In this document: piece after piece, positions 4,221 to 55,535 of the stretch
Position numbering within the stretch: the first letter of the stretch is position 1
How the letters are laid out: every line of letters starts with the position of its first letter
Assembly (NCBI RefSeq): GCF_029873635.1
Contig: NC_080423.1
Location: forward strand, 106,935,988 to 106,999,987
Source: Malania oleifera
Lineage: Eukaryota; Streptophyta; Magnoliopsida; Santalales; Ximeniaceae
DNA length: 64,000 nucleotides
Direction of reading: 5' to 3'
Notes under the pieces: generated by a model
The model's database searches: none
What the model was told of the DNA's origin: nothing
The model's input: only the letters and a program-made list of their open reading frames with translations
Program-made: the position numbers and the translations under genes

Positions 4221-4470
4221 ATCTCCCACTATAGACTCATGAGGAGAGGTCTTGAAGACCTACAACCACCCTGCAAAATTCAAGCTTCCTCTGACGTAAT
4301 GCTTTTGTCATCATGTGAGTCTTATTTTTATCTATGTGAATTTTCTCAATCTCTAACAATTCATCTCTAGTGCATCTCGAATCTAGTGATACCCCGCCTC
4401 AATATGCTTCAATCTCAAATGAAATGTTAAGTTCTTGCCAAATTGAATTGCACTCTGGTGTCACAATGCA
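4221..4470 (-). pseudogene. Copia polyprotein, C-terminal RNase H end (broken)
   Basis: On the minus strand the sequence translates in pieces to the end of a Ty1/copia RNase H domain, with an LAKN block and a degraded KHIEAGYH motif, then the basic tail and a polypurine tract. It carries stops and frameshifts. The upstream part continues across the LTR retrotransposon inserted at 4471-12393: the reading runs from 12399 straight into 4470. Part of one copia remnant scattered over 3489-20545. Confidence 0.7.
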
Positions 4471-4480
4471 TGTGATGACC

Positions 4481-4525
<45 letters not shown>

Positions 4526-6956
4526 GTATAATAATAATAGAATAATAAAAATTGTCATTAAGTTAATATCAATACAGAAGTGTTTTTCTGTAAAATCCTT
4601 AATTCCATGTTTGATGCCTAAGAAAGACCTTGTCTTAACGAGTGCTCAGAGACCATTGCGGTTCAGTCGCTTCCTGAAAGTTGGCCTAATCAAAATGGAA
4701 TTTCATAGGATAAACAAGATAGACACTGTTTGTACACGTAAATAAGTATATATACATAAAATAGTGTTTTGACAGACATAATTTGTAGAAATACATAATA
4801 AGATGATAATAATATAGGTATCATATGTGGGGTCCACATGAGTCCCGAAGCCACAAGACACTGTTTATATACGTAAATAAGTATATAAAATAATATTTTA
4901 ACTGATATAATTTGTAAAAATATATGATAAAATAATAATAATATAGGTATCATATGCGGGGCCCACATGAGTCCCGAAGCCGTATGGAGGTTTATACGAG
5001 TCTCAAAGTTATGTAGGATGCATAAAATCGTATGAGAATTATTCGAGTTACGTAAGATCCATTCGGATCTCGAAGTTGTGTGGGGCCCACAAGATCATGT
5101 GGGGCCCACATGAGTTTTTAAATTTTAAATTTAATTATTGCTAAAAAAATAAATAATAAAATAAATAAATACTAAAAATAGTTTAAAAGTAATAACAATG
5201 ATAATAATAATGATAATAATGATTAAGAAAAATAATAAAATAATAAAATAATTAATTAACTAATTGATTAATTAATTAGGTAAGTAGTTAATTAAAAATT
5301 TATTTAATGGGAATGGTGGCAAGCACTCCCACATGGCCTTCATCCCCATCCCATACTCAATCCATACCTTATCCATCCTTGCCCATTCTTTAATTTTAAA
5401 AAAATTATAATTTTACCCATCTCTTCACATTTTTATAAATTTCATTTCTTTTCCAAAATTTTCCTATAAATAGGGAGCTCTCAACCTTCATTTTTCACAA
5501 CAATTTTCAAGGAAGAGAAGGATTACTGAGTGAAAGAATTTATGGTGAAGAGATAATTTTTGAATGAATTCTCAATTACTCACTCTTTTCGATCTCATTT
5601 CTTAGAGATAGTTACAGTATTCGTAAGGAAGAAAGTAAGTAAATTTTAATTATATTAGTTTTTTTTTATTTAAAATTCATACCCGAGTTTATTTTATAAG
5701 TAAATTTCAATTATGTTAATTAGTTCCACAAAATTTGTATGAGTTTATTTTTACACATATTTAATTATATCAGTTCTATCTTTAATATACTTGCATCTAT
5801 TTTTGGGTTATGAAATGTTCTAATCTCCTTCGGATAAATTTTCAGCATTTTTTTCTATTCAAAAATAAAATTATATATACTTTTAACACAAAAATTGTCT
5901 GGCATGAGTTTATTTTTACGTTGTATTTTTTTATAAAAATATGAGTAAAGAGGAGATTTTTACGATATTATTATAAATTGCATAAATTATAATAAGATGA
6001 TTTTAAAACCCCTTATGGCAACGAAAGTTCAAAGTTACAGATGCTCGGTATCGCAGCTTAAAGTTTATACGGATCAGAGTGCACCCACACTGTTTATAAA
6101 GTGGTTATTTATGTTAGTATATTTATCATGAGTGCACACCTGGTCCGGACCAAAACTTAATAAGGAAAATCTCACTTAAAGTTTACGTACATTGATTTAG
6201 TTTGGTCGGCCAGCTAGCTAAGTCCAGTCTTCGGACCGCACAACCTAATCATGGGGGTAAACATGACTTACGGCAAACAGGCCTAAGGGTGGTTTTTACA
6301 ATATATATTTATACATAGTTAATTACGTATACAAAATCACTGATAATTTGAAGAAAAAGTGTAAGTTTACATAAAAAAGATCATTCTAGTGCTTAAATGA
6401 CGATCTAAAAAAAACGTATAAGGAAAAGTATATGTATATTTATTATTAAATATTTATACAATTTTAAAGTTAAAAGTTTAATTTAACAGTTATAGTTTAT
6501 GATTATAAAATTTTACTGTTATAGTTGATGGTAAAAGTTTTATACAAAAATTTTTAAATTTATATTTATTATAGAGACAGTTTTAAAGTTATAATATTAA
6601 ATATTGTTTTACGAAATTTTTAAAAAGCTCATTTTGGCTACACACTAATAATAATCTTATTTACTTACTGAGCGTTGTCTCACTCCAATAATATTTTTAT
6701 TTCGGATGACTCTGAAGAGCATGTCAGAAATCAGGCTTAGCAAACATGCGGGTGGGAATAGAAAAATAAAGATTGATTAGAAATATTAGTATGATGTCAG
6801 ATATTTATGTTGTGAAATTTTTTTTCTTTTGAAATAAATGATTGTAATATGGATAATTAGTGTTCTGGTTTAATAAAAATTGAGTTTATTTTGCTTCCGT
6901 TGTAAATTAGTAGTAAAAAGTTAATATCCCGGGCTCCTCGGGATCGGGGTGTTACA
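4471..6956 (+). repeat. 5' LTR of the WOX-carrying retrotransposon
   Basis: It aligns along its length with 9884-12393, with scattered substitutions and small indels. It starts with a (TA)n run. It contains repeated near-palindromes GTGGGGCCCACATGAG (about 4824-5110), a TATA-like CTATAAATAGG at 5463, a block shared with other LTRs here (about 6205-6300: GGTCGGCC, CGCACAACC, ATGACTTA), and the inverted motif near 6664-6686. Confidence 0.9.
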
Positions 6957-6957
6957 T

Positions 6958-6970
6958 TTGGTATCAGAAC
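6958..6970 (+). promoter_or_regulatory. Primer-binding site (initiator tRNA-Met type)
   Basis: TTGGTATCAGAAC begins one base after the LTR end. It matches the usual plant primer site TGGTATCAGAGC, complementary to the 3' end of initiator tRNA-Met, with one or two changes. Confidence 0.8.
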
Positions 6971-8150
6971 AATAGGTTATAGGTTCTGTAGACTTTAAGA
7001 AATAATTTTACTAGAGCATAAGATATAGGTTCTGCATAAATCTAATATATAAATTTTACCAGAGCATAGGTATAAAACATGGTTTGGGTATGAGTGGGTA
7101 GTTTAAAATATTTATTTTAGTTTGTTATATTATTATACGATAATAATAGATTTATGATTTTAAAATAATATTTGGTCATTGTTTAAGAATGGATCTTAAA
7201 GATAGTAGCATTAAAGGAAATGAGATTTATGTGAAGGCTCCCAAGGACAGGTAATAATTATAAATTTTTTAAGAAAAATAGTAGTATTATTGAAGACACG
7301 TTAATTAATTTAAATATGTTATTTATGTTTGTAGAAACACGTACCTATATTGATGATTCATAATTAATTGTCAAATGCATTAATAATTTAAAATTTATAT
7401 ATATATATATATATAAATATAATAATATAATAATATCCAAGATTTATTTATTTTCTCCGTTATTATTTTCACTAAATATATAAGAAATAACCCATTAGAC
7501 CCTACTGAGTTTAGAAATGCTACACATACAAATAGATATGAACAAACGGTCTATTATGAAATCTGAATTTACCCAAAAAATTTATTTGCATGCATAAGTT
7601 GGATACGAATATGTATTTTTACGTTACATATTCAGTTATCAACAAAACATTCAACCTTAATTTACAAATATATATTTTGACAAAATCTTTAATTTTAATT
7701 TTGTATCAGTTTATAAGGAATTAAATATAATTCAAATATTGCTTATTATATTTAAATTCAAAAAAAAAAAATATATATATATATATATATGTATAATCCC
7801 TTAGTATGTACAAGTTAAATATGTATATCTATTTTTTCCCATTACGTATTCAATTTCCATCAAGTATCCAAGTTTGATTTATGAGTACAAATTTTGACGA
7901 AATCTTTAATTTGGTATAAATTTATAAAAGTTAATACAACTTAATTTTTTTTATATAAAAAAAATACCATTAATGAAAGCAATATAAAAATTAACTAATT
8001 TCCTTTAAATAACTAACCAATGTCAAATCATCAATTAGCTAAACATGCCCAACATATATTTAATAATAATAATAATAATGTTAGTGGAATATATATATAT
8101 ATATATATATGCCCAACATATATTTAATAATAATAATAATAATGTTAATG

Positions 8151-8190
<40 letters not shown>

Positions 8191-8210
8191 AAAGGGGTAC
8201 TCTTGTAGTT
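6971..8210. other. AT-rich interior of the WOX-carrying element
   Basis: No coding capacity. It holds several (TA)n runs (near 7398, 7770, 8088 and 8155). At 8047 and 8111 a 64-bp unit beginning GCCCAACATATATTT, with a TAA repeat and a TA run, is tandemly duplicated. No gag or pol similarity was found on either strand. Confidence 0.6.
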
Positions 8211-8375
8211 AAAAAAAGAAAAGAAAAAGAGCCTCATGGGTGAAAATCATCGGCTATAGCGCACTTACCCCCGAAGCAAGGCCAGGGCATGAGACCACTT
8301 GGGCATAGTGGGGACTCGAACCCACGATCACATGGATGCGTGGCCGGTTCCTTACCACTAGGCCACCCACCCAAG
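8211..8375 (-). mobile_element. tRNA-derived SINE
   Basis: Read leftwards from about 8375 there is a pol III A box, TGGCCTAGTGG, and a B box, GGTTCGAGTCC, with tRNA-like spacing. A tRNA-unrelated body follows, then a tail rich in T (CTTTTTCTTTTC then a T run) at 8211-8230. This is the layout of plant SINEs. No clear target duplication was identified, so the ends are approximate. It lies in the interior of the WOX-carrying LTR element, upstream of the 81-bp array. Confidence 0.72.
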
Positions 8376-8460
8376 TAGTGATCTAAGGATGAAATTAATT
8401 ATAGTTAAAGCATTAATAAAGATGTAAAAACATAAAAAGAACCTAGAGTCTGCAAATTTT

Positions 8461-8757
8461 GCAACACGTGTCGCTATCCCTCGATTTGTGTAAAACGCGT
8501 TGTTCAATATCCGTGACACGCATCGCTCTCTCTTGATTCTCGCAACACACGTCGTTCTCCCTTGATCTGTGCAAAACGCGTTAATCGATATCCATGACAC
8601 GCGTCACCCCCTCTCGGTTCTCGCAACACACATCGTTCTCCTTCAATTTGTGCAAAATGCGTTGCTCGATATCCGTGACACGCGTCGCTCTCCTTCGATT
8701 CTCGCAATACACGTCACTCTCTTTCGATTTCCACAACACGCAGTCATTCCCTTATAA
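8461..8757 (+). repeat. 81-bp tandem repeat, 3.6 copies, upstream of the WOX gene
   Basis: Units start at 8461, 8542, 8623 and 8704, each opening GCAACACACGTC or a close variant. The period is exactly 81 bp, and the last copy is cut short at the TATA box. Units hold ACGT-core, CACGTG-like and ACGCGT-like motifs (for example AACACGTGTCG in unit 1, GACACGCGTC in units 2 and 3). The array ends where a core promoter begins, so it looks like a repeated upstream activating sequence. That function is inferred. Confidence 0.9.
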
Positions 8758-8760
8758 AAA
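8753..8760 (+). promoter_or_regulatory. TATA box of the captured WOX gene
   Basis: TATAAAAA lies directly after the 81-bp array and 119 bases before the WOX ATG, leaving a leader of roughly 90 bases. This is a normal plant core-promoter layout. Activity is inferred. Confidence 0.55.
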
Positions 8761-8878
8761 GGGTACGCCCTCCTCAAACTCTAAGCATCACAGTTTTCTA
8801 CCATTTTGAACAACCACATTTCGGTTTGAAGAGATTAGTTTTTCCCAACTTTTCTCTTGGTTGTCTCATTATTCAAAA

Positions 8879-9576
8879 ATGTTGCCAAATCACCCAACTC
8901 CTCAAGCTGCTGAGAGCGGCACTAGTTCGCCAATCCAAAGATGGAAACCTAGCAAGGCACAACTAGAGATTTTAGAGGAGGCCTTCCGCAGCAGTTAAGG
9001 GGAACTCCCTTCTGTGGAGCGAACTATCTTACTTGCAGCACAACTTCGAAGGTATGGTCCAATCGAGCTGAGGAATGTGCGCTTTTGGTTTGAGAACAGT
9101 AGGCGTAGGCAGGAATCAGTTGGAGAAACCACTATCTCAACTACTGCCCCATCAATTCTCCATATTACCTCCTCCGCCACTACCGACCCGAGCAGTGCCC
9201 TTGCCATTTTTCCAACCCTCTTCCCTATCGAGAATATTCTGACTATGAAACTTACGACTAATATCACACCAATGAGCCATATCCCTCACAATGGCAATAT
9301 CGCAGTCACCACACTAAGGGTTTCGGATAATGCTGGCCTACTACACCATTGCAAGGAAATTTGATGCGCATTGAGACTCATATACCGGCCACCAATAACT
9401 TGGGAAAAGGGCAGCTCTTCCTCCCTCGCCGAACAAACGGGCGTTCTCTCCCTTTTTCCGACCCAAGCCGGCGACATTAGAGAGGTCAACTATACCAAGA
9501 AAAAAAAAAAACCCCGGCGGTTAGCAGTGACACCGCTAGTACTTCGATAGATGTTGATGTTGATCTAAGGCTCTAA
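8879..9576 (+). pseudogene. WUSCHEL-clade WOX homeobox gene, intronless and broken, inside an LTR retrotransposon
   Basis: From the ATG at 8879 the frame gives a short Ser-rich lead, then a WOX-type homeodomain over about residues 21-80. It opens RWKPSKAQLEILEEAFRSS and ends LRRYGPIELRNV then RFWFENSRRRQ. The W-F-x-N core and the long YGxIExxNV turn mark WOX proteins. In the same frame further on is VLSLFPTQ (about 9450-9480), matching the WUS-box TLxLFPxx. After a 13-A run, one base out of frame, the end reads DVDVDLRL then stop, like the EAR-type tail of WUS. Lesions: TAA at 8996-8998 inside the homeodomain, TGA at 9362-9364, and the A-run frame shift. The helix-3 Gln is Glu and the usual FYWF is RFWF. 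Host WUS-clade genes normally have introns; none is seen here, suggesting capture from mRNA. WOX membership is firm; the subclade call rests on the WUS-box and tail. Confidence 0.85.
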
Positions 9577-9870
9577 AGGCCAGATTTCGTCTCATTTTTT
9601 TTTTTACATATATTTTTAATTTATAGGATATGTATAATATATACATATATATAATTATCCTTTTCCACATCTTCTAATTTCTTTTCCATTTCAACCTCTA
9701 TTAGACTGACGATTCACACTTCAATTCTCAAAATAAAATACTTCGCCAAATTGACCAACAATCTATTCTAAGACTTAATCAAATCGTTAATCAATGTACT
9801 CTTTTAAATAGCGCAACCAATTATATAGTACTCATTTTAAATTAGCCAATTTCGAGGACGAAATTTTTAT
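9577..9870 (+). other. Non-coding 3' interior of the WOX-carrying element
   Basis: No domain or repeat was recognised. The final bases (TTTCGAGGACGAAATTTTTA) are shared with the gypsy 3' ends near 41470 and 55503 in this window. Confidence 0.5.
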
Positions 9871-9883
9871 AAGGAGGGGAGAT
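9871..9883 (+). promoter_or_regulatory. Polypurine tract of the WOX-carrying element
   Basis: AAGGAGGGGAGAT lies directly before the right LTR and matches the tract before the Tekay LTR at 55536 (AAGGAGGGGAGGT). Confidence 0.85.
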
Positions 9884-9895
9884 TGTGATGACCCA

Positions 9896-9935
<40 letters not shown>

Positions 9936-12393
9936 GTACAATAATAATAAAATAATAAAAATGGTCATTAAGTTAATATCAATACAGAAGTGTTTTTCTG
10001 TAGGATCCTTGATTCCATATTTGATGCCTAAGAAAGACCTTGTCTTAACGAGTGCTCAGAGACCATTGCGGCTCAGTCGCTCCCTGAAGGTCGACCTAGT
10101 CAAAATGGAATTTCATAGGATAAACAAGATAGATACTGTTTGTACACGTAAATAAGTATATATGCATAAAATAGTGTTTTGACAGACATAATTTGTAGAA
10201 ATACCTAATAAGATGATAATAATATAGGTATCATATGTGGGGCCCACATGACTATGTGGGGTCCACATGAGTCCCGAAGCCACAAGACACTGTTTATATA
10301 CTTAAATAAGTACATAAAATAATATTTTAACTGATATAATTTGTAAGAATATGTGATAAAATAATAATAATATAGGTATCATATGCGGGGCCCACAAGAC
10401 TGTATGGGGCCCACATGAGTCCCGAAGTCGTATGGAGGTTTACACGAGTCTCAAAGTTATGTAAGATGCATAAAATCGTATTAGAGTTATTCGAATTACA
10501 TAGGATCCATTCGGGTCTCGAAGTTGTGTGGGGCCCACAAGACCATGTAGGGCCTACATGAGTTTTCAAAATTTAAATTTAATTATTGTTTAAAAATAAA
10601 TAATAAAATAAATAAATACTAAAAATAGTTTAAAAGTAATAACAATGATAATAATAATGATAATAATGATTAAGAAAAATAATAAAATAATAAAATAATT
10701 AATTAACTAATTGATTAATCAATTAGGTAAGTAGTTAATTAAAAATTTATTTAATGGGAATGATGGCAAGCACTCCCACATGGCCTCCATCCCCATCTCA
10801 TACTCAACCCATACCTTGCCTATTCTTTAATTTTAAAAAAATTATAATTTCACCTATCTCCCCACACTTTTATAAATTTCATTTCTTCCCCAAAATTTTC
10901 CTATAAATAGGAAGCTCTCAACCTTCATTTTTGACAACAATTTCTCAAGGAAAAGAAGGATTAGTGAGTGAAAGAATTTGTGGTGGAGAGAGAATTTTTG
11001 AATAAATTCTCAATTACCCATTTTTTCCGATCTCATTTTTTAGAGATAGTTACAGTGTTCGTAAGGAAGAAAGTAAGTAAATTTTGATTATATTAGTTTT
11101 TTTTTATTTAAAATTCATACCCAAGTTTATTTTATAAGTAAATTTCAATTATGTTAATTAGTTCCACAAAATTTCCATGAGTTTATTTTTACGCATATTT
11201 AATTATACCAGTTCTATCTTTAATATACTTGCATCTATTTTTGGGTTATGAAATGTTTTAATCCCCTTGGGTAAATTTTCAACATTTTTTTCTATTCAAA
11301 AATAAAATTATATATATTTTTAACACAAAAATTGTGTGGCATGAGTTTATTTTTACGTTGCATTTTTTATGAAAATATGAGTAAAGAGGAGATTTTTACG
11401 ATATTATTATAAATTGTATAAATTATAATAAGATGATTTTAAAACCCCTTATGGCAACGAAAGTTCAAAGTTACAGACGTTCGGTACCGCAGCTTAAAGT
11501 TTATACGGATCAGAGTGCACCCACACTGTTTACAGAGTGGTTATTTATGTTAGTGGATTTCTCCTGAGTGTACACTTGGTTCCGGACCAGGACTTAATAA
11601 GGAAAATCTCACTTAAAGTTTACGTACGTTGATTTAGTTTGGTCGGCCAGTCAGCTAAGTCCAGTTTTCGGACCGCACAACCCAGTCATAGGGGTAAACA
11701 TGACTTACGGCAAACAGGCCTAAGGGTGGTTTTTACAATATATATTTATACATAGTTAATTACGTATACAAAGTCACTGATGATTTGAAGAAAAAGTGTA
11801 AGTTTACATGAAAAATATCATTCTAGTGCTTAAATGACGATCTAAAGAAAACGTATAAGGAAAAATATATGTATATTTATCATTAAATATTTATACAGTT
11901 TTAAAGTTAAAAGTTTAATTTAACAGTTATAGTATATGATTATAAAATTTTACTGTTATAGTTGATGGTAAAAGTTTTATACAAAAATTTTTAAATTTAT
12001 ATTTATTCTAGAGACAGTTTTGAAGTTATAATATTAAATATTGTTTTACGAAATTTTTAAAAAGCTCATTTTGGCCACACACTAATAATAATCTTATTTA
12101 CTTACTGAGCGTCGTCTCACTCCAATAATATTTTTATTTCAGATGACTCTGAAGAACATGTCGGAAATCAGGCTTAGCAAACATGCGGGTGGGGATAGAA
12201 AAATAAAGATTGATTAGAAAGATTAGTATGATGTCAGATATTTATGTTGTGAAAATTTTCTTCTTTTGAAATTAATGATTGTAATATGGATAATTAGTGC
12301 TCTGGTTTAATAAAAATTGAGTTTATTTTGCTTTCGCTGTAAATTAGTAGTAAAAAGTTAATATCCCGGGCCACTCGGGGTCGGGGTGTTACA
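9884..12393 (+). repeat. 3' LTR of the WOX-carrying retrotransposon
   Basis: Pairs with 4471-6956. It differs by scattered substitutions and by an extra GTGGGG(C/T)CCACATGA unit near 10236-10272 and 10385-10420, so the palindrome array has changed copy number since insertion. The TATA-like CTATAAATAGG is near 10901, the shared LTR block near 11640-11740, and the shared inverted motif at about 12103-12122. It is followed by the target duplication ATGCA. Confidence 0.9.
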
Positions 12394-12398
12394 ATGCA

Positions 12399-36230: not shown

Positions 36231-39200
36231 TGCAGAGAATCAAAATTTTTGTTACTAGTGCCATACTTGGGGAATTTGAGATTTCTTGGGACTCGTGGCC
36301 ACATTTTTTGGGTGTCCCCTTTGGTTATGTGGGTATTTCTGTCCGATCTCCTCCTCAAGCTCCTATGAAGCTTCTTCCACCACGTGATTCCTCCACAGGA
36401 CTTTTACTAATGATATTTTCTTACTGCGCAATTCCTGTTCCTTCCTGTACAATCTACACTGGGGTTTCCTCATAAGCTAAGGTATCACTAAGTTCTATCT
36501 CTGCATAACTAACCACGTGGGAAGGATTTGGGACAGGCTTCCTCAGCATGGAAACATGAAATACATCATGTATTCTAGATAGAGCTGGTGGCAGAGCTAA
36601 CTTGTAGGCAACTGACCCCACTCTATCAAGTATCTTAAATGGGCCAATGTACCTAGAGCTCAGCTTACCTTTCTTCCTAAATCTCATAACTCCTCTTAGT
36701 GAAGTTACCTTCAAAAATACCCAATCTCCCATATCAAACTCTAACTCCCGACGGCGAGTATCTGCGTAACTTTTCTATCGACTCTGAGCTACACTAATTC
36801 TATATTCAATTTGTCGGACTTTACCGTACGTCTGTTGCACCAATTCTAGTCCTAGAACTAGCCTCTCACCCACGTCATCCCAGTGCAGTGGAGAATGACA
36901 CCTTCTACCATATAACGTCTCATATGGTGTCATGCCGATGCTGACCCGATAGCTATTATTATATGCGAACTCCACCAGCAGCAGATACTTGGTCTAGCTA
37001 CCCCTAAAATCCAGCACGTAAGCTCGTAACATATCCTCGAGTATCTGAATCGTTCTCTCAATCTACCCATCAGTCCAAGGATGAAAAGTTGTGTTGAATG
37101 CTAACTGTGTTCCCATAGCCTCCTGAAAGCTCTTCCAAAATTGTGAAATAAATCGGGGATCTCTGTATGAGACTATAGATATTGGCACACCATGGGAGCG
37201 AACTACCTCCTGAATGTACAACTTTGCTAGTATGTCCATAGAATAGCTGAATTTAATAGGGATAAAGTGAGCAGTTTTCGTCAGTCGATCTACGACCACC
37301 CAAATAGCATTCTGTTTTTGTCGCGCTGGCGGTAGCCATGCCACGAAATCCATAGAGACGTGATCCCATTTCCACTTAGGGATGTAGAGTGGTTTCAACT
37401 ACCCCGCAGGTCTCTGGTGCTCAGCCTTTACTTGCTGGCACGTCAAACACTACTTCACAAATTTAGCAATATCCCTCTTCATGTTGGTCCACCAGAAGGA
37501 TTCTCATAGATCCCGATACATTTTAGTACTACCTGGATGCACGGTGTATAGGGATCTGTGTGCCTCTTCTAAAATAGTTCTCCTAATCTCAGCATCTGTA
37601 GAAACACATAATCTGGTATGGAATCGTAGGGGTCCGTCATCTAATATGTTGAGATCCTCCTCCTATCCATCTTGTACTTTCTCTATCAACTCTGCTAATT
37701 CTACGTCATTCTTCTGAGTGGATTTAATTCTTTCTTACAAAGTAGGTTGTACCACCAGGTTGGCAATGAAAGCCTGGTGATCCCCCTTTATTGGCTCCAC
37801 GCCTAACGTCTCTAAATCCATCTGGATAGGGTGCTGAACTCCACTGTTGACACCACTACTCCTGCTGTTTTCTTGCTCAGTGCATCAGCCACCACGTTTG
37901 CTTTCCCTGGAAAATAGCTGATAATACAATCATAATCCTTGATAAGATCCAATCATCTTCTCTGTGGCATATTCAAATCTTTCTAGGTGAAGAAATACTT
38001 TAAGCTTTTATGATTAGTGAAAATCTCACATTTCACACCATATAGATAGTGCCTCCGAATTTTCAAAGCATACACCATTGTTGCTAATTCTAGATCATGC
38101 ACAAGGTAGTTTTTCTCTTATTCTTTAAGTTGTCTGAACGCTTAAGTAATGACTCTCTCATGTTGCATCAACACGCACCCGAGCCCACTCTGTGACGCAT
38201 CATTGTATATGACAAAACCATCCTCTCCTGATGGAACAGCTAACATCGGGGCGGTGAACAATTGCTGCTTCAACTCCTAGAAGCTCTACTTACATTTATC
38301 AGACCATTCAAACCTCGCATTCTTTCTCGTGAGTCGTGTCAAGGGACCTAATAGTCTGAAAAAACCATTTACAAAGTGTCAGTAATACCCTGCCAAACCT
38401 AGAAAGCTCCTAACATCCTAAACATTTCTCGGCCTTACCCAATCTATCACTGTCTCTATCTTGCCTGATCAACAGATATACCATCCCTGGAGATCACATG
38501 CCCCAGAAAGGTAACCTGTCTCAACCAGAATTCACATTTCTTGAATTTCGCGCATAGCTTTCTTTCCCTCGATACCTGTAACACCAACCTCAAATGATGC
38601 TTATATTCTTCAAAGCTCTTTGAGTAGACCAGTATATCATCTATAAATACCACAACAAACTGATCGATAAACATATGGAACGCCCGATAAACGTTGTCAG
38701 TGCATTTGTCAAACCAAATGGCATAACGAGAAACTCGTAGTGCCCATTCTAGTTCTGAAAGCCGTCTTCGAGATGTCCTCCGCTTTAACTTTCACCTGAT
38801 GATAACCTGACCTGAGGTCGATCTTGGAGTAAACTTGAGTCCCCTGGAGCTAATCAAATAGATCATCAATTATGAGAAGAGGATATTTTTTTTATCGTCA
38901 CTTCATTTATCTCTCTATAATCAATGCACATCCTCATGGTCTCATCTTTCTTTTTCACAAACAAGACTGGAACCCCCCCCAGGGCGACAAACTGGGCCTA
39001 ATAAATCCATTTATCTAATAACTCTTGTAGCTATTCTTTCAATTCAGCTGGAGCCATTCTGTAAGGCACTTTATATATCAGTGTCGTCCCTGGAAGCAGA
39101 TCAATTGCAAATTCTACCTCCCGATCTGGTGGTAATCCAGGAAACTCCCCTGGAAAGACATCTGAAAATTCTCTAACCACTAAAATATTAGCCTATTTCA

Positions 39201-39453
39201 GTTCCTCTTTTAGCAGCTCCTTTATGTAGGCAACATATCCCTAACAACCACCCTGAAGTAGCCTCCTCTCTTGAATAGCTGACACCAATTGTGGAGAGGC
39301 GCGGTGCATACATGCGACCCCATAAATCTGAATTCATGTTCTCCTGGAGGTCTGAAGATAACCTATTTCTAATGGCAATCAATGTTGGCATAATTAGCTA
39401 CCAGCCAATCCATACCCAAAATAACATCCAACCCCTGCATATCTAATACCACG
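36231..39453 (-). pseudogene. Older Ty3/gypsy (Tekay-type) pol: protease end, RT, RNase H, integrase, chromodomain region
   Basis: Minus-strand order from the right: protease end (MQGLDVILGMDWL across the insertion junction), RT with [12 protein letters not shown] (about 38630) and [11 protein letters not shown], RNase H, integrase (DRLTKTAHFIP, PISIVSYRDPRF, TTFHPWTDG at 37063-37398), and the C-terminal block [20 protein letters not shown] (36454-36732). Many stops and frameshifts. Interrupted at 39453 by the complete element 39454-51252; its 5' part continues at 51253-52125. The 3' LTR is missing, cut by the LTR ending at 36230. Confidence 0.92.
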
Positions 39454-41450
39454 TGTAACGACCTCAAAATCTTAATACAAAATGTAACATAATAAATAGA
39501 AAAGTCAACCTGAACCCGTGGGTAACGGGGAAACCTATCAATCACAGCAGAAACCTAAGCAGCAGTAAGTATAGAATCTCAATCATCAAACCATAAAACA
39601 TAATACCAAAGTCTATTTACACCAAAATAGCATACATATATTTTCAATCTCCCATAACGTTCCAATTACAACTAGGATCTCAAAACAAAATAATCTTGAT
39701 CTTAGAACAAAATCTTTCCCTCCTAGTAGGGTAACTCAATAAACTCAACGGCGGCCTTGACCCGCCGGTCTCTCTGGGTTTCCTGAAAAATTAATTAAGT
39801 TAGGGGGTAAGACACATCTCAGTAAAGGAAAATAAACTAAATACAGCTGTGTGGCAACATGAATATATAATGCAATTATATATATACAATACAATTCATA
39901 TATCTGTAAACATCCGTCAAAACATACTGAATCATTATATACTGTCATATTTTTCTAGCAACTCATATCATTCATAAATTTTCTGTTATATCTGATAATA
40001 CTGAAAACATACCCAGGATGAATAGTTAGCTGATGTCATGTATTACCCCCCATGACGGGTTATGCAGCCCGAAGGCAGGACCCGACAATGGCTGGCCGAC
40101 CACTGCCGAGTCAAAAATGTCTATAAGTACGATGGGCCCGCCACACCCTAATCCGGACTATCAGGTGGACGTCCACACTCTACTAAAAGTCACATCAACT
40201 ATCCATTTCCCACCCCCTTGTGGGGTGGTTAGCACCAATCTTATCATAGATATCTAATCTATAAGCTACGGTACCATGCTCCTGAACTAAACTAAACTAA
40301 CATCCGGGTTCTCATAATATATAATACATGATATTATAGCATCTTTCATCATTTCATAAATATGGCCTCGCGCCGAACATTTCATAAATACGGCCTCGCG
40401 CCAAACATTTCATAAATACGGCCTCATGCCGAAATCATACGTAAAATATGGCCTTGCGCCAAATAGCTCATACATATCATTTTGAAAATAAATCAATTAT
40501 CATGTATTTTCAAAACTATAATGTACTGCATTATTTCATAATTCCTGAAAACATGCTTTACTCGTAAAATCTTCCATATCATTATACTTCTTATGAGAAA
40601 TAACATTCATGCCACACAAAGCTGGGTAAATCATACATTTCATTCTAAAATCATAATTTCCGTACAACAGCAGTATTTTCTCAAATATGCATTTATTCCA
40701 TAATATTCAAATATCGTACATATTTTTTAGAAAATCAATTTGCTCATAAATAATAGTAATTTGCGTGAAGAGTAATTGCTTTAGTTTATTCCCTTACCTG
40801 ACGACTAAGAAAGCCCCAAAAATATCCTAGTCTAACACCCGCAGGATTTCCTGCTCAATACCCTGAAAATGAAAACTCCAGTACTAAACTTCATTATTTT
40901 CACGTGTATATCATTTCCTATAACTACCATAAGACCAAATTTGGCTTAAAAAGCCTTACCTAAACTCAAGGATGATTTTCAACGGAGTTCCACTGACGAT
41001 CCACTCCGGCATATTTGGAGAGAACTTCTCTAGGAGTGTCGTGGTGGCTTCAGATCCTTGAACCGGCGGAAATTTGGCCCGAAATCGAAGAGAGAAGAGA
41101 GAGAAACCGTAGGGAGAGAGAGAAACCGTAGGGAGAGAGAGAGAGTGAGAGGTTTCTTAATTTTGAAGTTAAAATCTAGATTTTTTATATTTATAGGACT
41201 GGATTCGTCAACGAGCCATGTCATCTCGTCGACGAGTCCTTTAATAATTTCATCGACGAAACCCACTCCTCGTCGATGAAATTCAGACTGCTCAAAACCT
41301 CTCTCGGTATTTCCTCGTCGAAGAATCTTGTCTTCGTCGACGAGGTCCTCTTATACCCTTGTCAACGAATCCCCTGTGTTCGTTGATGAGGCCCCGATAA
41401 TTTCCCCTTCCTCTTTATTTAAATTACATTATTTTATTCGGGTCGTCTCA
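39454..41450 (-). repeat. 3' LTR of the Tekay-type element
   Basis: Starts on the minus strand at 41450 (TGAGACGACCCG) and ends at 39454 (GGTCGTTACA). Palindrome array at 41210-41400, TATA-like at 41186-41195, minisatellite at 40360-40465, shared core at 40040-40110, inverted motif at 39804-39828. Pairs with 49244-51252. Confidence 0.93.
41186..41195 (-). promoter_or_regulatory. LTR TATA box (minus strand)
   Basis: Minus-strand TATAAATATA just downstream of the palindrome array; conserved in the 5' LTR near 50990. Confidence 0.55.
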
Positions 41451-41480
41451 TTCTCCCCTCCTTATAAAATTTCGTTCTCG
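41451..41480 (-). promoter_or_regulatory. Polypurine tract of the Tekay-type element
   Basis: Minus strand: AACGAAATTTTATAAGGAGG then GGAGAA directly before the 3' LTR. Confidence 0.85.
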
Positions 41481-41743
41481 TAATTTACTATTCATATAAT
41501 TCATCATCCCTTATTAGGCAAAATGGCCTACTTATTTTATTACTTACCCTCACTTATGGCGGAGGAATACCGTGGTTACATTTCAAGTCCTGGGAGATTA
41601 CATATACAAAAGAAAAATTTCCCCTAAAACTAAAATACCACTTACTACAACAGTATTACATGTACTTGCAAAAGAAACATTATATATTTACTTACATTTA
41701 AACTTTTTGGAATAGTTGCGGATATTTTTGTCTGATATGCTCC

Positions 41744-43876
41744 TTAAGCCTCTAAAGAAGCCTCTTCTACTGTATGATTCCTCCATAGGACCTTTACCAA
41801 TGGAATCTTCTTATTACGTAGTTCCTGCTCCTTTCGATCCAGAATCTGCACTGATACCTCCTCATAGACCAGCGAATTACTAAGCTCTAACTCACCATAG
41901 CTGATAATATGAGAAGGATCTGGAACGTACTTCCTCAACATAGATACGTGAAATATGTCGTGCATTGGCAAAGCTAGCTTGTAGGCCACCAGCCCCACTT
42001 TCTCTAAAATCTCAAACGGACCGATAAACTTAGGGCTAAGTTTACCCTTCCTACCAAACCTCATAACTCCTTTTAATGGGGTTATCTTTAGAAACACATG
42101 ATCACCCACCTCGAACTCCAAATTCCTACGGCGATTGTCGGCATAACTTTTTTGTCGGCTCTGAGCTACACTGATTTTATCCTTGATAAGCCAAACTTTA
42201 TCGCACACCTGCTGTACCAGCTTTGGCCTCACAACTTGCTGCTCACCCATCTCATCCCAATACAAAGGAGATCGACATCTCCTACTATACACTGCTTCAA
42301 ACGGTGTCATGCCAATACTAGACTGGTAACTGTTATTATACGCGAACTCTACCAGCGGCATGAACTGAGTTCAACTACCCCCAAAGTCTAATACACATGC
42401 TTGGAGCATATCTTCTAGTATCTGTATCATCCTCTCAGTTTGCCCATCTGACTGAGGATGAAATGTCATGCTGAAAGATAGCTGAGACCCTAAAGCTTCC
42501 TGCAAGCTTCTCCAGAACCGTGACGTGAAATGCGGGTCTCAATCTGACATAATATATACTTGCACCCCATGAGAATGAACTATCTTCTGAACGTAAATCT
42601 CCGCTAAAGGTTGAGGGAATAACTGATTTTGATAGGGAGGAAATGGGCGGTCTTAGTCAACCGATCTACTATCGCCCAAATCGCATTCTGGCCATACGAT
42701 GTCGACGTCAACCCTGAAACGAAGTCCATAGATATATGATCCCACTTACACTCTAGGATAAATAACAGCTGCAATTGACCCGCTGGCCTCTAGTGCTCAG
42801 CTTTTACCTGCTGGCACATCAAGCACTGGGCTACATATTCGACAATCTCCCTCTTCATACCACTCCACCAGTAAAACTCTCGCAGATCCCTGTACATTTT
42901 CGTACTGTCTGGATGAACCGTATACAAAGATCTGTGAGCCTAATCTAAAATAGTCTTCCAAATATTAGTATTGATAGGAATGCATAATTTGGAGCGGAAC
43001 CGCAAAGTTTCGTCATCTGAAATGCAGAATTCCTCTCCTTAACTACTCTGCACTCTGTCCATCACCTCTACTAATTCTAGGTATTTTTTATGAGCAACTT
43101 TAATTCTTTCCTGCAGTGTAGGCTGTACCACTAGGCTGGCGATACATACTGGAGTATTACTCTATCAATTCAATGTCGAGTCTCTCTAGATCCATCATGA
43201 TCGGATGCTGGATCTCCATAGCTACCAACGCTGATTCCCCAAATTTCCTGCTTAGTGCATCAACTACCACATTTGCTTTCCCTGGGTGGTAACTGATAGT
43301 ACAGTCAAGATCCTTAATCAACTCTAACCACCTTCTTTGTCTCATGTTCAACTCCTTCTGGTTGAAGAAATACTTTAAGCTCTTGTGGTCGGAGAAAATC
43401 TCGCACTACTCACCGTACAGATAATGCCTCCAAATTTTCAATGCATGTACCACTACAACCAACTCAAGATCATGGGTAGGGTAGTTCTTTTCATAATCTT
43501 TCAACTATCTAGACGCATATGCCACAACCCTACCATGTTGCATCAATACACAGTCAAGTCCCTTCAAGGACGCATCACTAAAAATAGTATAACCCTCACC
43601 CCTAGACAGGATGATCAATACAGGTGTTGTGACTAACCTCTGCTTCAGTTCCTAAAAACTCTGCTCACAACTGTCGTCCCATTCAAATATGGCATTCTTC
43701 ATAGTCAGTCATGTCAGAGGCCCTGATAAAACTGAGAATCCCTCGACAAAATGACGGTAATACTCGGCTAATCCCAAGAAACTTCTGATCTCCTAGACGT
43801 TCCTCGGTCTAGCCCAATTCATTACCGTCGCAATCTTACTAGGATCTACAGAAATTTCGTCTCCTAAGATAACATG
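41744..43876 (-). pseudogene. Tekay-type pol, second half: RT end, RNase H, integrase, chromodomain
   Basis: Continues the RT frame after the 43877-46635 insertion. RNase H region (FSDASLKGLDCVLMQHG, then [18 protein letters not shown]), RNase H/integrase linker ([20 protein letters not shown], then [11 protein letters not shown] at about 43270), integrase with TTFHPQSDGQTE-like MTFHPQSDGQTE and the GMTPFEAVYSRRCRSPLYWD block, and a 205-codon open C-terminus (41744-42361) ending in a chromodomain-like VKVLWRNH segment. Several in-frame stops in the first 1.5 kb; many fit C-to-T change at CAG, CGA or TGG codons. Confidence 0.93.
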
Positions 43877-46635
43877 TGTAAAAACCCCAAAAAGATATAT
43901 AAAAGATTAGCGGATTGATTTCCAAAAAATAAAATAAAATAAAATAATAAAAAAAATATTATTATTAATTAATTAATTAATCAAATTTTAAAAGAAAATA
44001 AAAATAATTATTTAAAATTATTTTTATTTTATTAATAAAATATATTATTATTAATATTAATTAAATATATTATTATTATTATAACATTACCTGAAGCTTG
44101 AAGCTTCAGGTAAGTCTCAGAAAAGTGCGCAGGCCCCCCCCACAGCATCTTCTTCTTCTTTCTTTTCTTTCTTTTCTTTTCTTTTCTTTATTCCTTCTCT
44201 GCAACTCCTGCAATCTCTCTCTCTCTCCTCACGTTCTCTCTCCCTCTCTCCTCGATTTCATGACGGATTTTCGCCCGATCGAAAATCCGAAGATACCACT
44301 GGACTCCATTCGCTGCTGCCGTCATTTCTATCGGAGCGGATCGGTGGTAGGAGCGGCGTAAGTGTATTCCCTGGGGTAAGCCATTTCCCCCTTTTTCTTT
44401 AATTTCTTGCAAAATATAAGCCCAATTGACGAACGGACACCACCACGAGAATCTACGGATGATTCTCTATAAGTCTAATGGGACAGAATTCTTGTGGGGG
44501 TGTCGGGCCAAAACTCTAAATTTGAGGTGCGGCGATTATTAAGGGGCTTATTTTTAATTAATTAACATTAATTTAGAAATACTAAAATATTAAGCATCTG
44601 AGACTGAAGTAGGATTTCTGAAATTTAGGGCTCGGGTGAGCGCCGCGGGTGTAATTTTGGGACCCACAGATAAAATTTAGAAAAATTAAGTGGGGGTATT
44701 AAATAATAGTTTAAATATTAATTTGAGGTATATGGAGTCTAGGGAAGGCTATATGGGTATTATTTTAGAGAAATAGATTAATTAATTTGAGGAAAATGTA
44801 AATTGCAGGAGTTGAATTTCAGACGTTAAGGGCGTAGAATTTGGGATTCTAGGGAGACTCTCAGTAAGCCAAGTAAGGGGAATAAATTATAGCAGTGTTT
44901 TTAGAATTATTATTTGAATGAATATGTGAAATTGAGCATATGATATTTTGTCTGAAAATTATTATGATATAAATATCAGATAAATTGTGTGGCATTTGAG
45001 TAATTGTAAATTGTGATATTTTGGAGTGTAAAATATAATAATGTGTAATTTCTGAGAAAATATTGAAATGAGAATTACTGATTTGATTAGTGAAAAATAA
45101 TGTAATATTGTATTATTATATGAGTAGAAATGTTTTGCCTGGAAAATGGGATTTTGTGAATTATTAATATTGAAAAATAATGAAATGTGGTAATTATTTG
45201 TGAGTGAAAATTATTTGCATGAGAAATGAGTATTTTGGGAAAATATGAAAAATACATGAAATATGATATATGATATTACGAGATGATGAAATGTGCACAG
45301 AAAATGATGAGAATATTTATATTGAACTGAATTGTGATATACTGGAATATAATTGATGAAATGGCAATACCGCATAATGATTGCGGGTATGTGGTGGTAA
45401 ACCCTGTTGGATGGTTATGATATTTAGCACGGTACCGTTGCGAGTGGTGTTAGTGCAACCACACAGACTCTTGGAGCATGTGGCGTGACAGTCGACTGTG
45501 CCATTGTGTAGGGTTGTTGGGCCCCCTGAGTCCGGATTAGGGTATTAGGCCGGCCAGTCGTACTACAGACGCGATATGTGATATGATATTTGATCTAACC
45601 GAGTCGGCCAACCGCGGTTAGATCCAGCCTTCAGGCCGCACAACCTTGACCATGGGGGGAAGCATGGCGTGTATAGAAAGATCCTTAGGGTGGCCATGAG
45701 TTACAGACGCGATGTTGGTATTTGATACCGAGGATACTCATAAGCTGGAAAGTAAAGTGGAAATGAAAAGTGGAAGAATGATAAAATTGGCTAAAATGAG
45801 AAATGAAAGAAAGAATGGAAATTGAGAAATAAAGAATGAAAAAATTGAGAAATGGAACAGTGTGAGTTAATAATATAAATAATTAAGGCGAAGTGAAACT
45901 CTCCGCCTGAGGGCTTACTGAGTAAGGTGAGTGCCCTGATGGGTATCAGATGTGGCCATACCCGGCTGCATAACGTGTTAGGGCAGAGGGAAGCTACCTG
46001 TATGGGCGGGTAATCTTCCCTATTCTCAGGAACTTCGCGTGTAAATATGTGTTGGAAATCATTAAATTTGATAAATGATTTTTAAGCTTATAAAAGCTTG
46101 TGTTGTATATCTATATGATTATGTGTTTGTGAATATCAGTGTATTTTCTCAAATGAAATGGTGATTTGAAAAGTAAAGTGTATTATAATTTTACTCATTT
46201 GGCCACACACTGTAAATAATCTATTCCTTCTTACTGAGATGTGTCTCACCCAAATTATCTAAATTTTTCAGGGAACAGAGATAGGCCAGGTGGTAGAGCT
46301 CCGTGATAATTGGGAACTGGGACCCTGAGATACAGGGTGAGTTTTGACTAGGGAGGTGTGGTTTCCTAGGATTGTATTATTTTTGGGTACGAGATAGGGT
46401 TGTGTATTTATGTATGTTGATACTCTGGGTATTGTATTCTGACTGATGTGTATATACTAGCTTCCGCTGTTAGGTTGTTTAATAAAATACTTTTTACCCG
46501 GTATCCAATGCGGGTCGGGTCGTATGAATGGTACTAGGATTGTTGACGTGGCCGATTTGTGGATGTTGTGGATTTATGACGTGATTATTTATTTATTAAA
46601 AGAAAAAAAAATTGTACGAAAATCGGGGCGTCACA
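43877..46635 (+). mobile_element. Solo LTR of a fourth family (TGTAAAAACCCC)
   Basis: Perfect duplication ACATG at 43872-43876 and 46636-46640; TGTAAAAACCCC...GGCGTCACA ends. The RT frame (FLGHV...) reads across once it is removed. 2,759 bp. It lacks GTCGACGAA arrays but keeps the shared core (45600-45680) and the inverted motif (46229-46252). A perfect 27-nt palindrome is at 44087-44113. Confidence 0.9.
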
Positions 46636-46640
46636 ACATG

Positions 46641-47579
46641 CCCCAAAAACACAACTTTCTCGAGCCAGAATTCACATTTACTAAATTTTGCATACAACTT
46701 CTTCTCCTTAAGCATCTGCAAAACTTGTCTCAAATGTATCTCGTGCTCCTCATAGCTCTTCGAGTAAACCAGTACATCATCAATAAAAATAACCACAAGC
46801 TGATCTAAATATGGATGAAAAATCCTATTCATTAAATCCATAAATATCGCAGGAGCATTCGTCAGACCAAATGGCATAACAAGATACTCATAATGCCCAT
46901 ATCTGGTCCTAAAAGTTGTCTTCGATACATCCTCTGCTCTCACCTTTACCTTATGGTAACATGACCTGAGATCGATCTTGGAATACACCCGTGTACCCTA
47001 TAGCTAGTCAAACAAATCATCAATACGAGGTAGAGGATACTTGTTTTTTGATGGTCACTTTATTAATCTCTCTGTAATCTATACACATCCTCATAGACCC
47101 GTATTTCTTTTTTCACAAATAGCATTGGAACTCCACACGGAGATACACTAAGTCGTATGAATCCCTTATCAAGCAAATGCTGCAACTGATCTTTCAATTC
47201 TGCCAACTCTGCTGGCGCCATTCGGTATGGTGCTTTAGAGATCGGCGCTGTACTTGGAAGTAGATCAATAGGGAAATCTACCTCACGATCAGGAGGCGAA
47301 CCTGGTAATTCATCTGGGAACACATCCGTAAATTCTTTCATCACAGACGTATTGATAAGCTTCAATTCATTTATGGACATTTCCTTCACAAAAGCCACGA
47401 ATCCCAAACAGCCATCTTGGAGCAGTATCCTTGCCTGAACAGTTGAGACCATCTGAGGTAAAGATTGCACTCGTGACCCTGTAAATCTGAATTCTGGTTT
47501 CCCTAAAGGTCTGAATATCACTTCTCTTGCACGACAGTCTATAATAGCAAAATTAGCTACTAGCCAATCCATGCCGAAG
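46641..47579 (-). pseudogene. Tekay-type pol, RT first half
   Basis: Minus-strand: [29 protein letters not shown], then [37 protein letters not shown] and [14 protein letters not shown], which carries the catalytic IDD (usual Y/F-x-DD). A frameshift near 47065 separates the two open parts. The frame runs into the solo LTR at 46635. Confidence 0.93.
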
Positions 47580-47974
47580 ATGATATCAAACTCGTGCATA
47601 TCCAGCACCACCAAATCAGTAGATAAAATTCTCCCCTAAACATCAATTGGACAACCCTGAAGTATCCTACTACATATCACCGCTAACCCGGTCGGTGTAG
47701 CCACTAATAACTCAACATCTAATGATTATGTTTCAACCCCACATAATTTAACACGTCCCAATGACACAAATGAATGTGTGGCACTAGAATCAAAAAGTGT
47801 AATAACTTTAAATGAAAACATATTAACCGTACCTATCACCACATCACCGGCCGCCTCAGCATCGCCTGGCGTCAAAGAAAAAACCCTAGCAGGGGCTATA
47901 TTCCTCTGCTGGCCTCCACGTGGCGCCTAGTAGCCTCCTTGAGCAGGTCTAGGAGTAGGAGTAGCACCAATCTG
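47580..47974 (-). pseudogene. Tekay-type aspartic protease
   Basis: Minus-strand reading VITLFDSSATHSFVSLG at about 47760-47810 is the retropepsin active site; the usual DSGA is DSSA, a Gly-to-Ser change likely to inactivate it. The flap/second half ends EFDIIFGMDWL (about 47560). It has in-frame stops. Confidence 0.85.
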
Positions 47975-48925
47975 TGTCGGATACTCCCTCATCATATGTC
48001 CTGGCTCCCTGCACCTGTAGCAAACACCTCGCCCGGCACGTCACTCCCCCAGGTGTCTCTTCCCTCAAGATAGGCAAGTTGGAGATGGCTGCACACCCTA
48101 GAAACTACGATTCCCGATCTTTTGTCTCCAGTTTCTATAATGGCCACCTCTCTTCCACGAAGCACGGCTAACTCCCTGCTGGGAACCGAAAGGTGCGGAT
48201 CTCTTCTTCTGCCTCTGCTCCTCAGCCTCCAACTGATCACCAATTTCTACTATAGTGGCTCGGTCAACTAGCTCAGCGAAGTCCTGCAACTTCAGTATCG
48301 ATTCTTGCTTGTATATTTCTCTCCTCATGCCTCTTTCAAATTGTCGTACCTTCTTCACCTCATTTGGAATGATGTACGGGACGAAGCGAGATAGCTTGAT
48401 GAACCTCGCCGCATACTGCTGCACTGACATCTATCCCTACTTCAGATTTAAGAACTCCTCAATCTTAGCCTCCCTAGACAAGGCTGGAAAATATCTATCA
48501 AATAATATTTCTTTAAACCGCTCCCTCGTCATCTCCACAGGCACAATCCTCTGCTGCTCTAATAATCTCACCGCCAACCACCATCTCTTGGCCTCTATAA
48601 TCAGTTTATATGTGGCAAATAGTACCCTCTGCTCCTCCGAACACTGTAGTACTGCAAACACTTTCTCTATCTCCTGCACCCAATTTTCAGCAACTGCAGG
48701 ATCTATCCCTCCTGAGAAAGTCGGAGAACTCATCTTAATAAACTTCTTTATTGAGCTACCGTGGCCTGCCGAGGGACCACCTTGTTCTTTCGAACTCCTA
48801 ACAATTTCTACCATAACCTGCTGTGCCACGCTTTGCGAGACGGCATTTGAATCGCTACCCATAGCTCCTGAGGGTCCAGCACCCTCACTCCCACTAGCGT
48901 GGGCACTACTGCCACCAGGGTCCAT
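47975..48925 (-). pseudogene. Tekay-type gag with zinc knuckle
   Basis: Start taken at the ATG at 48925 (MDPGGSSAHASGSEGAGPSG). A retrotrans_gag domain follows (FSGGIDPAVAENWVQEIEKV ... RWWLAVRLLEQ ... RFKEILFDRYFP), then, in the same frame after two stops (TAG GGA TAG near 48431), MSVQQYAARFIKLSRFVPYI. A further stop at 48098 precedes the zinc knuckle CYRCREPGHMMREYP, a CCHC box whose last Cys is Tyr-shifted/lost. It forms the capsid and nucleocapsid in intact relatives; broken here. Confidence 0.92.
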
Positions 48926-49228
48926 CCTGAAAAACAAATAACTTAACTCAAAAACCCTTCACTACATATATCCCTCAACCAATATAGTATTTATTCCCAA
49001 ATTAATTCATCTCTCCTTATCGTAATTCAAGGTTCAATCCTGTAACCTAGATACCCAACCTGACGATAGTTTACCATGACTTTCCTGAAATCGTCACCTC
49101 AGGAAAATCACACAAACCACCACGGAAGTTCTGCATTTAGACTACAAAATCAGACCTCAAATTCCCTTATCCTATACTCTAGTATTATTACTGCTACATT
49201 CTAGAGTCTACAGAACCTAGTATCCTAA

Positions 49229-54822: not shown

Positions 54823-55195
54823 TTGGGGGTAAGATATTCCTGAGAATCATTCCGATGAAAGGGGTGATGAGATTTGGGAAGAAGGGCAAGCTGAGCCCAG
54901 GTATATCAGACCATTCGAGATACTAGAACGAGTGGGTCTAGTGACATATAGGATTGTACTACCGCCAACGCTCTTGAGGATCCATGATGTGTTCCACGTA
55001 TCCATGTTGAGGAGGTACGTGCCAGATTCGTTGCATGTAATTAGTTATGAATCCATAGAGATTGGGGATGCTTTGGCCTATGAGGAGATACCCGTTCAGA
55101 TTCTGGATCGTAAAGTTCATAAGCTGCGTACCAAGGAGATACCGTTAGTGAAGGTACTGTGGCGGAATCACGTGATTAAGGAAGTTGAGAGTTAG
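54823..55195 (+). pseudogene. Gypsy integrase C-terminus and chromodomain-like tail
   Basis: Open frame [15 protein letters not shown] region, then [40 protein letters not shown] and [17 protein letters not shown] before a stop. Same Tekay/Del type tail as in 41744-43876. Continues from 52966. Confidence 0.92.
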
Positions 55196-55520
55196 AGACA
55201 TAAATACACCGGAAACATCCACAGTTGTTTTGAGTAGTAGTTTTGATAGCAAGATCGGTATGGGTATGTATGTATGTAATATTCTGCTATTGTAGTAATG
55301 TTGAGTGGTTGGTCTCAGGGGGAGTGTGTAATATTGTGAGCTCCCGAGACAGTGTATGTATGTAACCATGGTATTCCTCCGCCATAAGTGAGGATATGAA
55401 TGTATGTGGGATGGGGCTGCTCTGTAGGTGGCCGCCAACTCTTTTTAGAGTTGGGTATGCATTTGGGTATGTAGTTGAGTAGGTAAAAGAGAGATTACAA
55501 ATTTCGAGGACGAAATTTTT
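55196..55520 (+). other. Gypsy 3' untranslated region
   Basis: Non-coding sequence between the pol stop and the polypurine tract. No gene seen. Ends ATTTCGAGGACGAAATTTTT, as in the WOX-carrying element. Confidence 0.7.
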
Positions 55521-55535
55521 GTAAGGAGGGGAGGT
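55521..55535 (+). promoter_or_regulatory. Polypurine tract of the plus-strand gypsy element
   Basis: GTAAGGAGGGGAGGT directly before TGTAAGATCC. Confidence 0.85.

Follow-up and report, generated by a model that had tools for sequence, protein, structure and literature searches.

The locus analyzed here raises the question of how a homeobox gene of the WOX type came to lie between the LTRs of a retrotransposon, and whether the element gains from carrying it. The window, i.e., the whole 64,000-nucleotide stretch of DNA that was analyzed, is part of contig C7 of Malania oleifera (Ximeniaceae), for which 1.494 Gb of genome were searched. Positions 4471-12393 of the window are a 7.9-kb non-autonomous LTR retrotransposon. 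Its features, with the evidence for each in brackets, are as follows.

4466..4470, no strand: left copy of the TSD, ATGCA (sequence and TSD analysis)
4471..6956, + strand: 5' LTR, starting with TGTGATGACCC and ending with GGGGTGTTACA (LTR comparison)
6957..6976, + strand: primer-binding site region, TTTGGTATCAGA... (sequence; count of LTR-end junctions)
6957..8460, + strand: AT-rich leader with no gag/pol frame of at least 110 aa (ORF list)
8240..8378, - strand: tRNA-derived SINE-like stretch in the leader, A/B-box-like by eye (sequence only)
8461..8741, + strand: 81-bp tandem repeats, immediately upstream of the gene (sequence comparison)
8752..8761, + strand: TATA-like box TTATAAAAAG, candidate internal promoter, by eye (sequence)
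8879..9576, + strand: WOX-type homeobox gene, decayed (sequence, Pfam, and PDB search)
8936..9112, + strand: homeodomain, residues 20-78 of the read (Pfam and PDB profile search)
9443..9466, + strand: WUS-box-like VLSLFPTQ (sequence)
9547..9576, + strand: C-terminal IDVDVDLRL and stop, EAR-like, in another frame in the window copy (sequence)
9853..9883, + strand: polypurine-tract region CGAGGACGAAATTTTTATAAGGAGGGGAGAT (sequence)
9884..12393, + strand: 3' LTR (LTR comparison)
12394..12398, no strand: right copy of the TSD, ATGCA (sequence and TSD analysis)

Both LTRs are about 2.5 kb long, end in TG...CA, and are approximately 93% alike, with a Kimura divergence of 0.053. The earlier note on this DNA had read two LTRs with a perfect TSD, and exactly this was found, with ATGCA flanking the pair 4471-6956 and 9884-12393 on both sides. 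Along with these hallmarks of an LTR retrotransposon, a primer-binding site and a polypurine tract are both present; the former, TTTGGTATCAGA at 6957..6976, we take to resemble the complement of the 3' end of initiator tRNA-Met. No gag-pol was found: the only frame of at least 110 aa within 6957-9883 is part of the homeobox gene, the sole recognizable gene of the element. The Rfam search of the window gave no match, and ARAGORN reported no tRNA in it, including the SINE-like stretch; a stretch related to the latter is also present at an old locus on contig C2, described below. The element is probably of the Ty3/gypsy type, the one pointer to this being a 39-bp polypurine-tract region (9848-9886) with 95% identity to positions 55500-55538, where a gypsy-type element of the window has its 3' end.

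Other mobile elements are also represented in the window. A gypsy-type piece is located at 54833-55195 on the + strand, the element ending near 55538 being the one with the common polypurine-tract region, and further gypsy-type pieces (gag, RT, and integrase-like frames by eye) are located at 37063-48958 on the - strand. Additionally, a 484-aa open frame at 57637-59091 on the - strand is hAT transposase-like by eye, with a BED-type zinc finger.

The earlier note had described the cargo as an intronless frame with a WOX homeodomain. The homeodomain gene is there and is intronless, but its frame is not open in the window copy. Two stops (TAA at 8996-8998 and TGA at 9362-9364) interrupt it, and DLRL lies in a different frame from the ATG, the frame changing after an A-run near 9498-9511; an intact gene in this copy is ruled out by these lesions. 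VLSLFPTQ and DLRL were found in the order claimed. Matches of PF00046 to the two halves of 8879-9576 were weak (E = 0.093 and 0.0065). The homeodomain match by profile search was obtained with the whole gene, read with X at the stops (5.7e-8, 32.9 bits, cut-off 22.9), as well as with the three complete copies tested from elsewhere (1.8e-7 to 2.1e-9). STENOFOLIA and WUSCHEL were the only matches when the window gene was searched against all PDB chains at E of at most 1. A chance match is ruled out by these Pfam and PDB matches, and also because copies elsewhere in the genome are conserved.

The genome search proposed in the earlier note returned about 300 scored copies, dozens of them with unbroken frames, a family larger than first thought. 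The DNA search yielded 700 candidates (best 40 scored, at 91-100% identity) and the search with a Malania protein 2318 candidates (best 150 scored), both totals being first-look numbers rather than confirmed copies. A third search, with the STENOFOLIA homeodomain, listed 150 matches, which we sorted into 130 element copies, most of them judged from the listing with their sequences not fetched, and 20 host-type genes or the old C2 locus. Merged, with overlapping entries removed manually, the three lists correspond to about 308 distinct places. The genome has 253 exact junctions of the LTR end with the primer site, none being found with the reversed control, and on contig C1 a listed homeodomain match lies 1.9-2.1 kb downstream of 12 of the 21 junctions. 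An assembly oddity or a single event is ruled out by the many genomic copies and the 253 junctions. No autonomous partner was found, the pattern of LTR end plus primer site being the one search that speaks to this point.

LTR sequence flanks the gene on both sides in 17 of the 20 further copies fetched with flanks, and the common order in these 17 is LTR, leader, 81-bp repeats, gene, short tail, LTR. In the remaining three, LTR sequence was found on the 3' side only (L009 and L012) or, on the 5' side, as only a 130-bp, 78% piece (L016). The 81-bp repeats were matched in all of the 20 except L012. TSDs of 5 bp were found in 12 of 21 copies, the window copy included; eight are perfect, four have one mismatch, and all are different, while eight of the other copies had ends out of reach and L018 gave only a wrong pairing. 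Since the copies have their own, different TSDs, the gene was moved by the element many times; the gene moves together with the element. Some gene copies, a number of them incomplete, are located 5.3-5.8 kb apart (C1:68237773-68249207, C7:96281037-96286976, C4:124242695-124248564, and others), and from their spacing they look like tandem LTR-internal-LTR-internal-LTR arrays.

Divergence between paired LTRs is K 0.027-0.053 in the 16 copies measured, the window copy having the value of 0.053; the first 40 bases were omitted in the 15 others, and three pairs are partial. The Malania genome paper (PMC6377399) applied a rate of 1.3e-8 per site per year, at which the insertion age of these 16 copies is about 1-2 million years.

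Complete frames in other copies have about 227-246 codons, mostly 230 or 243. Among the 150 matches listed in the STENOFOLIA-homeodomain search, ranked by likeness, 67 show a stop-free open frame with a length of exactly 236 codons; frames of this type take in six codons ahead of the 230-codon gene. Three subfamilies, A, B, and C, were distinguished, and each has complete copies. Frames of at least 220 codons were found in 7 of 21 copies of subfamily A (window copy included; one frame is without the initial ATG) and in 7 of 40 copies of subfamily B (in one of these, L033, the frame extends into a masked stretch). All eight fetched copies of the young subfamily C have 230 codons from the ATG, having been picked from rows without a stop (seven listed at 236 codons, one at 253). 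These copies differ by a mean of 1.7% over the gene, and by sequence divergence the subfamily is younger than the copies with measured LTR pairs. Where subfamilies differ in length in an alignment of five complete copies, by 3 and 10 codons, the differences are in frame, and no fixed difference between subfamilies creates a stop.

Complete frames might be kept by selection on the host, if one or a few copies had been domesticated. Annotation of one copy by NCBI as a Malania oleifera gene, LOC131144967, would agree with this, but the 236-codon rows are spread over contigs C1 to C12 and C424 among the matches listed, which fits a recent burst. Moreover, in the annotated copy (protein P0001, locus L029; 99% match of its coding stretch to C1) LSLFPTQ is preceded by a stop, and the start of the gene model differs from the reading directly upstream in the genome. 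We consider a host-serving gene very improbable, and LOC131144967 is likely a misannotation of an element copy. The same P0001 was the only protein returned by searches for homologues; these searches need shared 5-residue words, and absence from other species is not shown by them.

The encoded protein comprises a homeodomain, a serine/threonine-rich middle part, VLSLFPTQ, and a tail ending with DVDLRL or DVELRL. In a PDB profile search with five copies, WUSCHEL was ranked first (1.9e-11, gapless over 60 residues) and STENOFOLIA second, only these two reaching the threshold. By both PDB and Pfam, the homeodomain is nearer to WOX than to other homeodomains, as a member of the WOX family should be, and kinship with WOX is solid. 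The signature of WOX helix 3 is NVFYWFQN. It was seen in the host WOX1, 3, 4, 5, 9, 11, and WUS genes (subclade labels by eye) and is not present in the element homeodomains of the copies read. Helix 3 of the elements mostly reads N(V/I)RFWFEN; most copies retain W, F, and N, and glutamate replaces the glutamine of WFQN in almost every copy read. This substitution, together with the existence of three subfamilies, supports the distinct transposon-borne lineage that had been suggested for the gene.

Placement within the WOX family is less firm. When set against 15 host WOX-type homeodomains, the A and C copies in the comparison are 30-42% identical, with a WOX1-type gene (label by eye) as the best host match, and the B copy is 27-36% identical. 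In the homeodomain tree, the element does not fall within any host WOX group but lies on a long branch, joined with L088 from contig C2 at 77%. Host WUS has one extra residue in the loop between helices 1 and 2. The element homeodomain has the same length as that of WUSCHEL, the PDB profile alignment being gapless; the alignment used for the tree places the extra residue of the element elsewhere, and L088 is of equal length. The WUS box is known as TLxLFPxx. VLSLFPTQ keeps its LxLFP part with V for T, and host WUS has TLPLFPMH. Homology of the tail with host WUS was dropped: the alignment scores are at shuffle level, being reached by 503 and 203 of 2000 shuffles for two copies and, for the end piece, by 2982 of 5000. 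Thus the WUS-clade assignment of the earlier note keeps the top rank of WUSCHEL and the WUS-box-like motif in its favor, while the tree position and the non-significant tail alignment count against it; membership in this clade is plausible.

Capture by way of an mRNA, as had also been proposed, is in part consistent with the data. In host WUS (L072), TLPLFPMH and SLELSL are read in a different frame from the homeodomain and lie over 1 kb away from it, because of which this gene is probably split by at least one intron; the element gene is intronless. However, the tandem repeats upstream of the gene in 19 of 20 copies and the TATA-like box of the window copy are not expected of a plain mRNA copy.

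Host WUS is accompanied by seven more WUS-like copies (L074-L080). Five of these lie within 33 kb on contig C1 (C1:44655700-44688400), approximately 0.9 Mb from L072, and the remainder at C435:34000-37300 and C13:48344900-48348200. Most have stops in or before the homeodomain, the picture being one of local WUS expansion with decay.

The earlier note had also named a finding that would speak against capture, namely the gene as host DNA outside LTR copies, with introns at the same locus. The gene sits inside LTR copies; for one old, decayed, intronless relative on contig C2, no LTR was recognized in the 6.2 kb fetched. There, at C2:73670600-73675000 (L097, L088, and L098), approximately 4 kb contain this gene relative, the leader segment, another, diverged homeodomain, the same repeat/TATA unit as in the element, and a LOG-like gene. 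At the DNA level, the gene relative is about 67% identical to five of six copies it was compared with, and the second homeodomain matches Pfam at 5.9e-5 (23.2 bits, cut-off 22.9). The LOG-like gene directly follows the repeat/TATA unit, and window stretch 8747-8791 recurs upstream of it. It has no apparent introns and is broken into two readings: the first piece matched no Pfam family, and the second matched PF03641 (1.8e-20) and LOG structures in PDB. Cytokinin, which is activated by LOG enzymes, works together with WUSCHEL in meristems. Ten LOG matches were found genome-wide (all 25 candidates scored), the nearest being 83% alike and about 190 kb away. Copia-type frames were seen by eye downstream of this locus.

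The C2 pieces may be either one former multi-gene element or piled-up insertions. In the first case, the gene could be an additional ORF native to the element since a very ancient capture, the WOX gene, the second homeodomain, and LOG having once shared a larger element with a common promoter unit. The grouping of all these parts within approximately 4 kb, with LOG behind the repeat/TATA unit, is what such an origin would leave; against it, no LTR was recognized there, LOG pieces are few, and the grouping may be a chance nesting of separate insertions. We regard this origin as improbable.

Whether the protein matters to the element was approached through the pattern of substitutions. Singletons of subfamilies A and B comprise 340 nonsynonymous changes (21 of them stops) and 137 synonymous ones, a neutral-looking ratio, and the intact fractions of these subfamilies (7/21 and 7/40) are not above those in a neutral simulation of substitutions. 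As judged from these sequences, the older copies, the window copy among them, decay neutrally. The eight young copies have a ratio of 16:20 over the whole gene (p=0.0013); outside the homeodomain, their singletons are 15:18 vs 259:95 in the older subfamilies (p=0.002). In a codon-position test, 41 copies gave 2.31/1.77/1.98 on terminal and 0.185/0.193/0.281 on internal branches, leaning to constraint on the latter; with 69 copies (4.27/3.02/3.92 and 0.382/0.299/0.432) the lean was weaker. An earlier comparison of fixed differences with singletons in 41 copies had p=0.024, and with 69 copies no difference was found (36:23 fixed vs 356:157 singletons, p=0.24). For the gene as a whole, eight comparisons with the old C2 copy gave a raw omega of 0.43-0.57, and two comparisons of the homeodomain gave 0.19 and 0.28; calibrated on singletons, nothing in this comparison was significant (p 0.095 or higher). 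A claim of strong purifying selection was dropped in view of the non-significant 69-copy and calibrated old-copy tests. The conserved dN/dS looked for in the earlier note is hinted at by a shortage of amino-acid changes among young copies but not by the fixed-difference or calibrated tests, and constraint in the young lineage is suggested, not proven.

The same data bear on a simpler account, in which the gene was captured once and hitch-hikes as a passenger of no use to the element, the young frames being intact because the founder of the burst was. It would explain why singleton ratios and intact fractions look neutral in the older subfamilies and why the calibrated comparison is not significant, and plant LTR elements often hold captured genes, of which many are in decay in rice (PMC3726574). 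It fits less well with complete copies in each of the three subfamilies, with indels between complete copies that keep the frame, and with the young-copy variation poor in amino-acid changes (p=0.002). Such a passenger is possible and to be taken seriously, though the odds are somewhat against it.

We favor, with a probability of roughly 50%, the reading that an LTR element acquired an intronless WOX-type coding sequence and was amplified with it, and that the protein is made and helps the element. This builds on the structure, mobility, copy number, and many complete frames observed. A non-autonomous, probably Ty3/gypsy-type element would have taken up the coding sequence and reached hundreds of copies in Malania oleifera by means of the proteins of a putative autonomous partner. 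The protein would be expressed under the control of either the LTR or the internal repeat/TATA unit, enter the nucleus, and bind DNA via a homeodomain with altered helix 3 (E for Q of WFQN); LSLFPTQ and DLRL may recruit a repressor. The simplest benefits to the element would be raised expression of its own or a favored stem-cell state in cells leading to the germ line. Most single copies would afterwards decay neutrally, like that of the window. WUS-type sites are not enriched in the LTR; in the leader, TTAATSS occurs 5 times vs 1.9 expected (reached in 9 of 200 shuffles), a weak excess uncorrected for 21 tests.

A bolder form of the favored reading is that the element spreads by its own WUSCHEL-type regulator, which would act in the shoot or floral meristem to open element expression or to enlarge the pool of germ-line-feeding cells. 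The element would then be a plant counterpart of viral oncogenes, with relatives that perhaps once carried LOG. We offer this form only speculatively and consider it unlikely.

The family comprises hundreds of elements with a WUSCHEL-like gene in place of the usual element genes. It would be exceptional for a recognizable stem-cell regulator to stay intact across several subfamilies and in dozens of near-identical copies, and the case raises the testable question of a plant transposon gaining from action on stem-cell or germ-line fate. Families of this kind would escape surveys that require gag-pol; in the 2019 Malania paper, as far as its description of intact elements goes, only elements with gag-pol were counted as intact (PMC6377399). 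One copy already figures in the annotation as a host gene.

No report of a WOX or homeobox gene in an LTR element was found in the open-access literature, one set of papers being judged from its listing. The terms homeo and WUS are both absent from the main texts of a study on host genes captured by plant LTR elements (PMC3726574) and of a 2026 review (PMC13317346). The main texts of PMC7264820, PMC11963269, and PMC9289625 likewise lack the term homeo, and WUS is absent from all four of these five texts in which it was looked up.

Compared with WUSCHEL (PDB 6ry3), the element protein has an alignable homeodomain (60 residues, gapless), a WUS-box-like LSLFPTQ, and an EAR-like end. It differs from WUSCHEL and STENOFOLIA (PDB 6ry3 and 6wig) in helix 3, RFWFEN instead of FYWFQN, and from the genes of WUSCHEL/WOX proteins in being intronless, LTR-borne, and present in hundreds of copies. 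Additional ORFs (aORFs) are known in plant LTR retrotransposons, e.g., gene23 of maize Grande, which has its own promoter (PMC7264820). Like these, the element has an extra gene beside the 3' LTR, possibly with its own promoter and with a product that is likely nuclear, and, like Retand (PMC11963269), it has short tandem repeats near the extra gene. Unlike the aORFs described there, the cargo is a recognizable developmental transcription factor, located on the sense strand in the position of gag-pol. Orchid Ty3/gypsy elements carry an m6A RNA demethylase domain (PMC9289625). As in those elements, an acquired host-type domain is retained across several subfamilies, although theirs is an RNA-modification enzyme and the one found here is a homeodomain protein. 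The captured-gene LTR elements of PMC3726574 likewise contain host gene sequence within an LTR element, and next to them the scale and intactness found here appear unusual. Thus, gene-bearing non-autonomous LTR retrotransposons are already known, and it is the cargo and its intactness that are unusual in this family.
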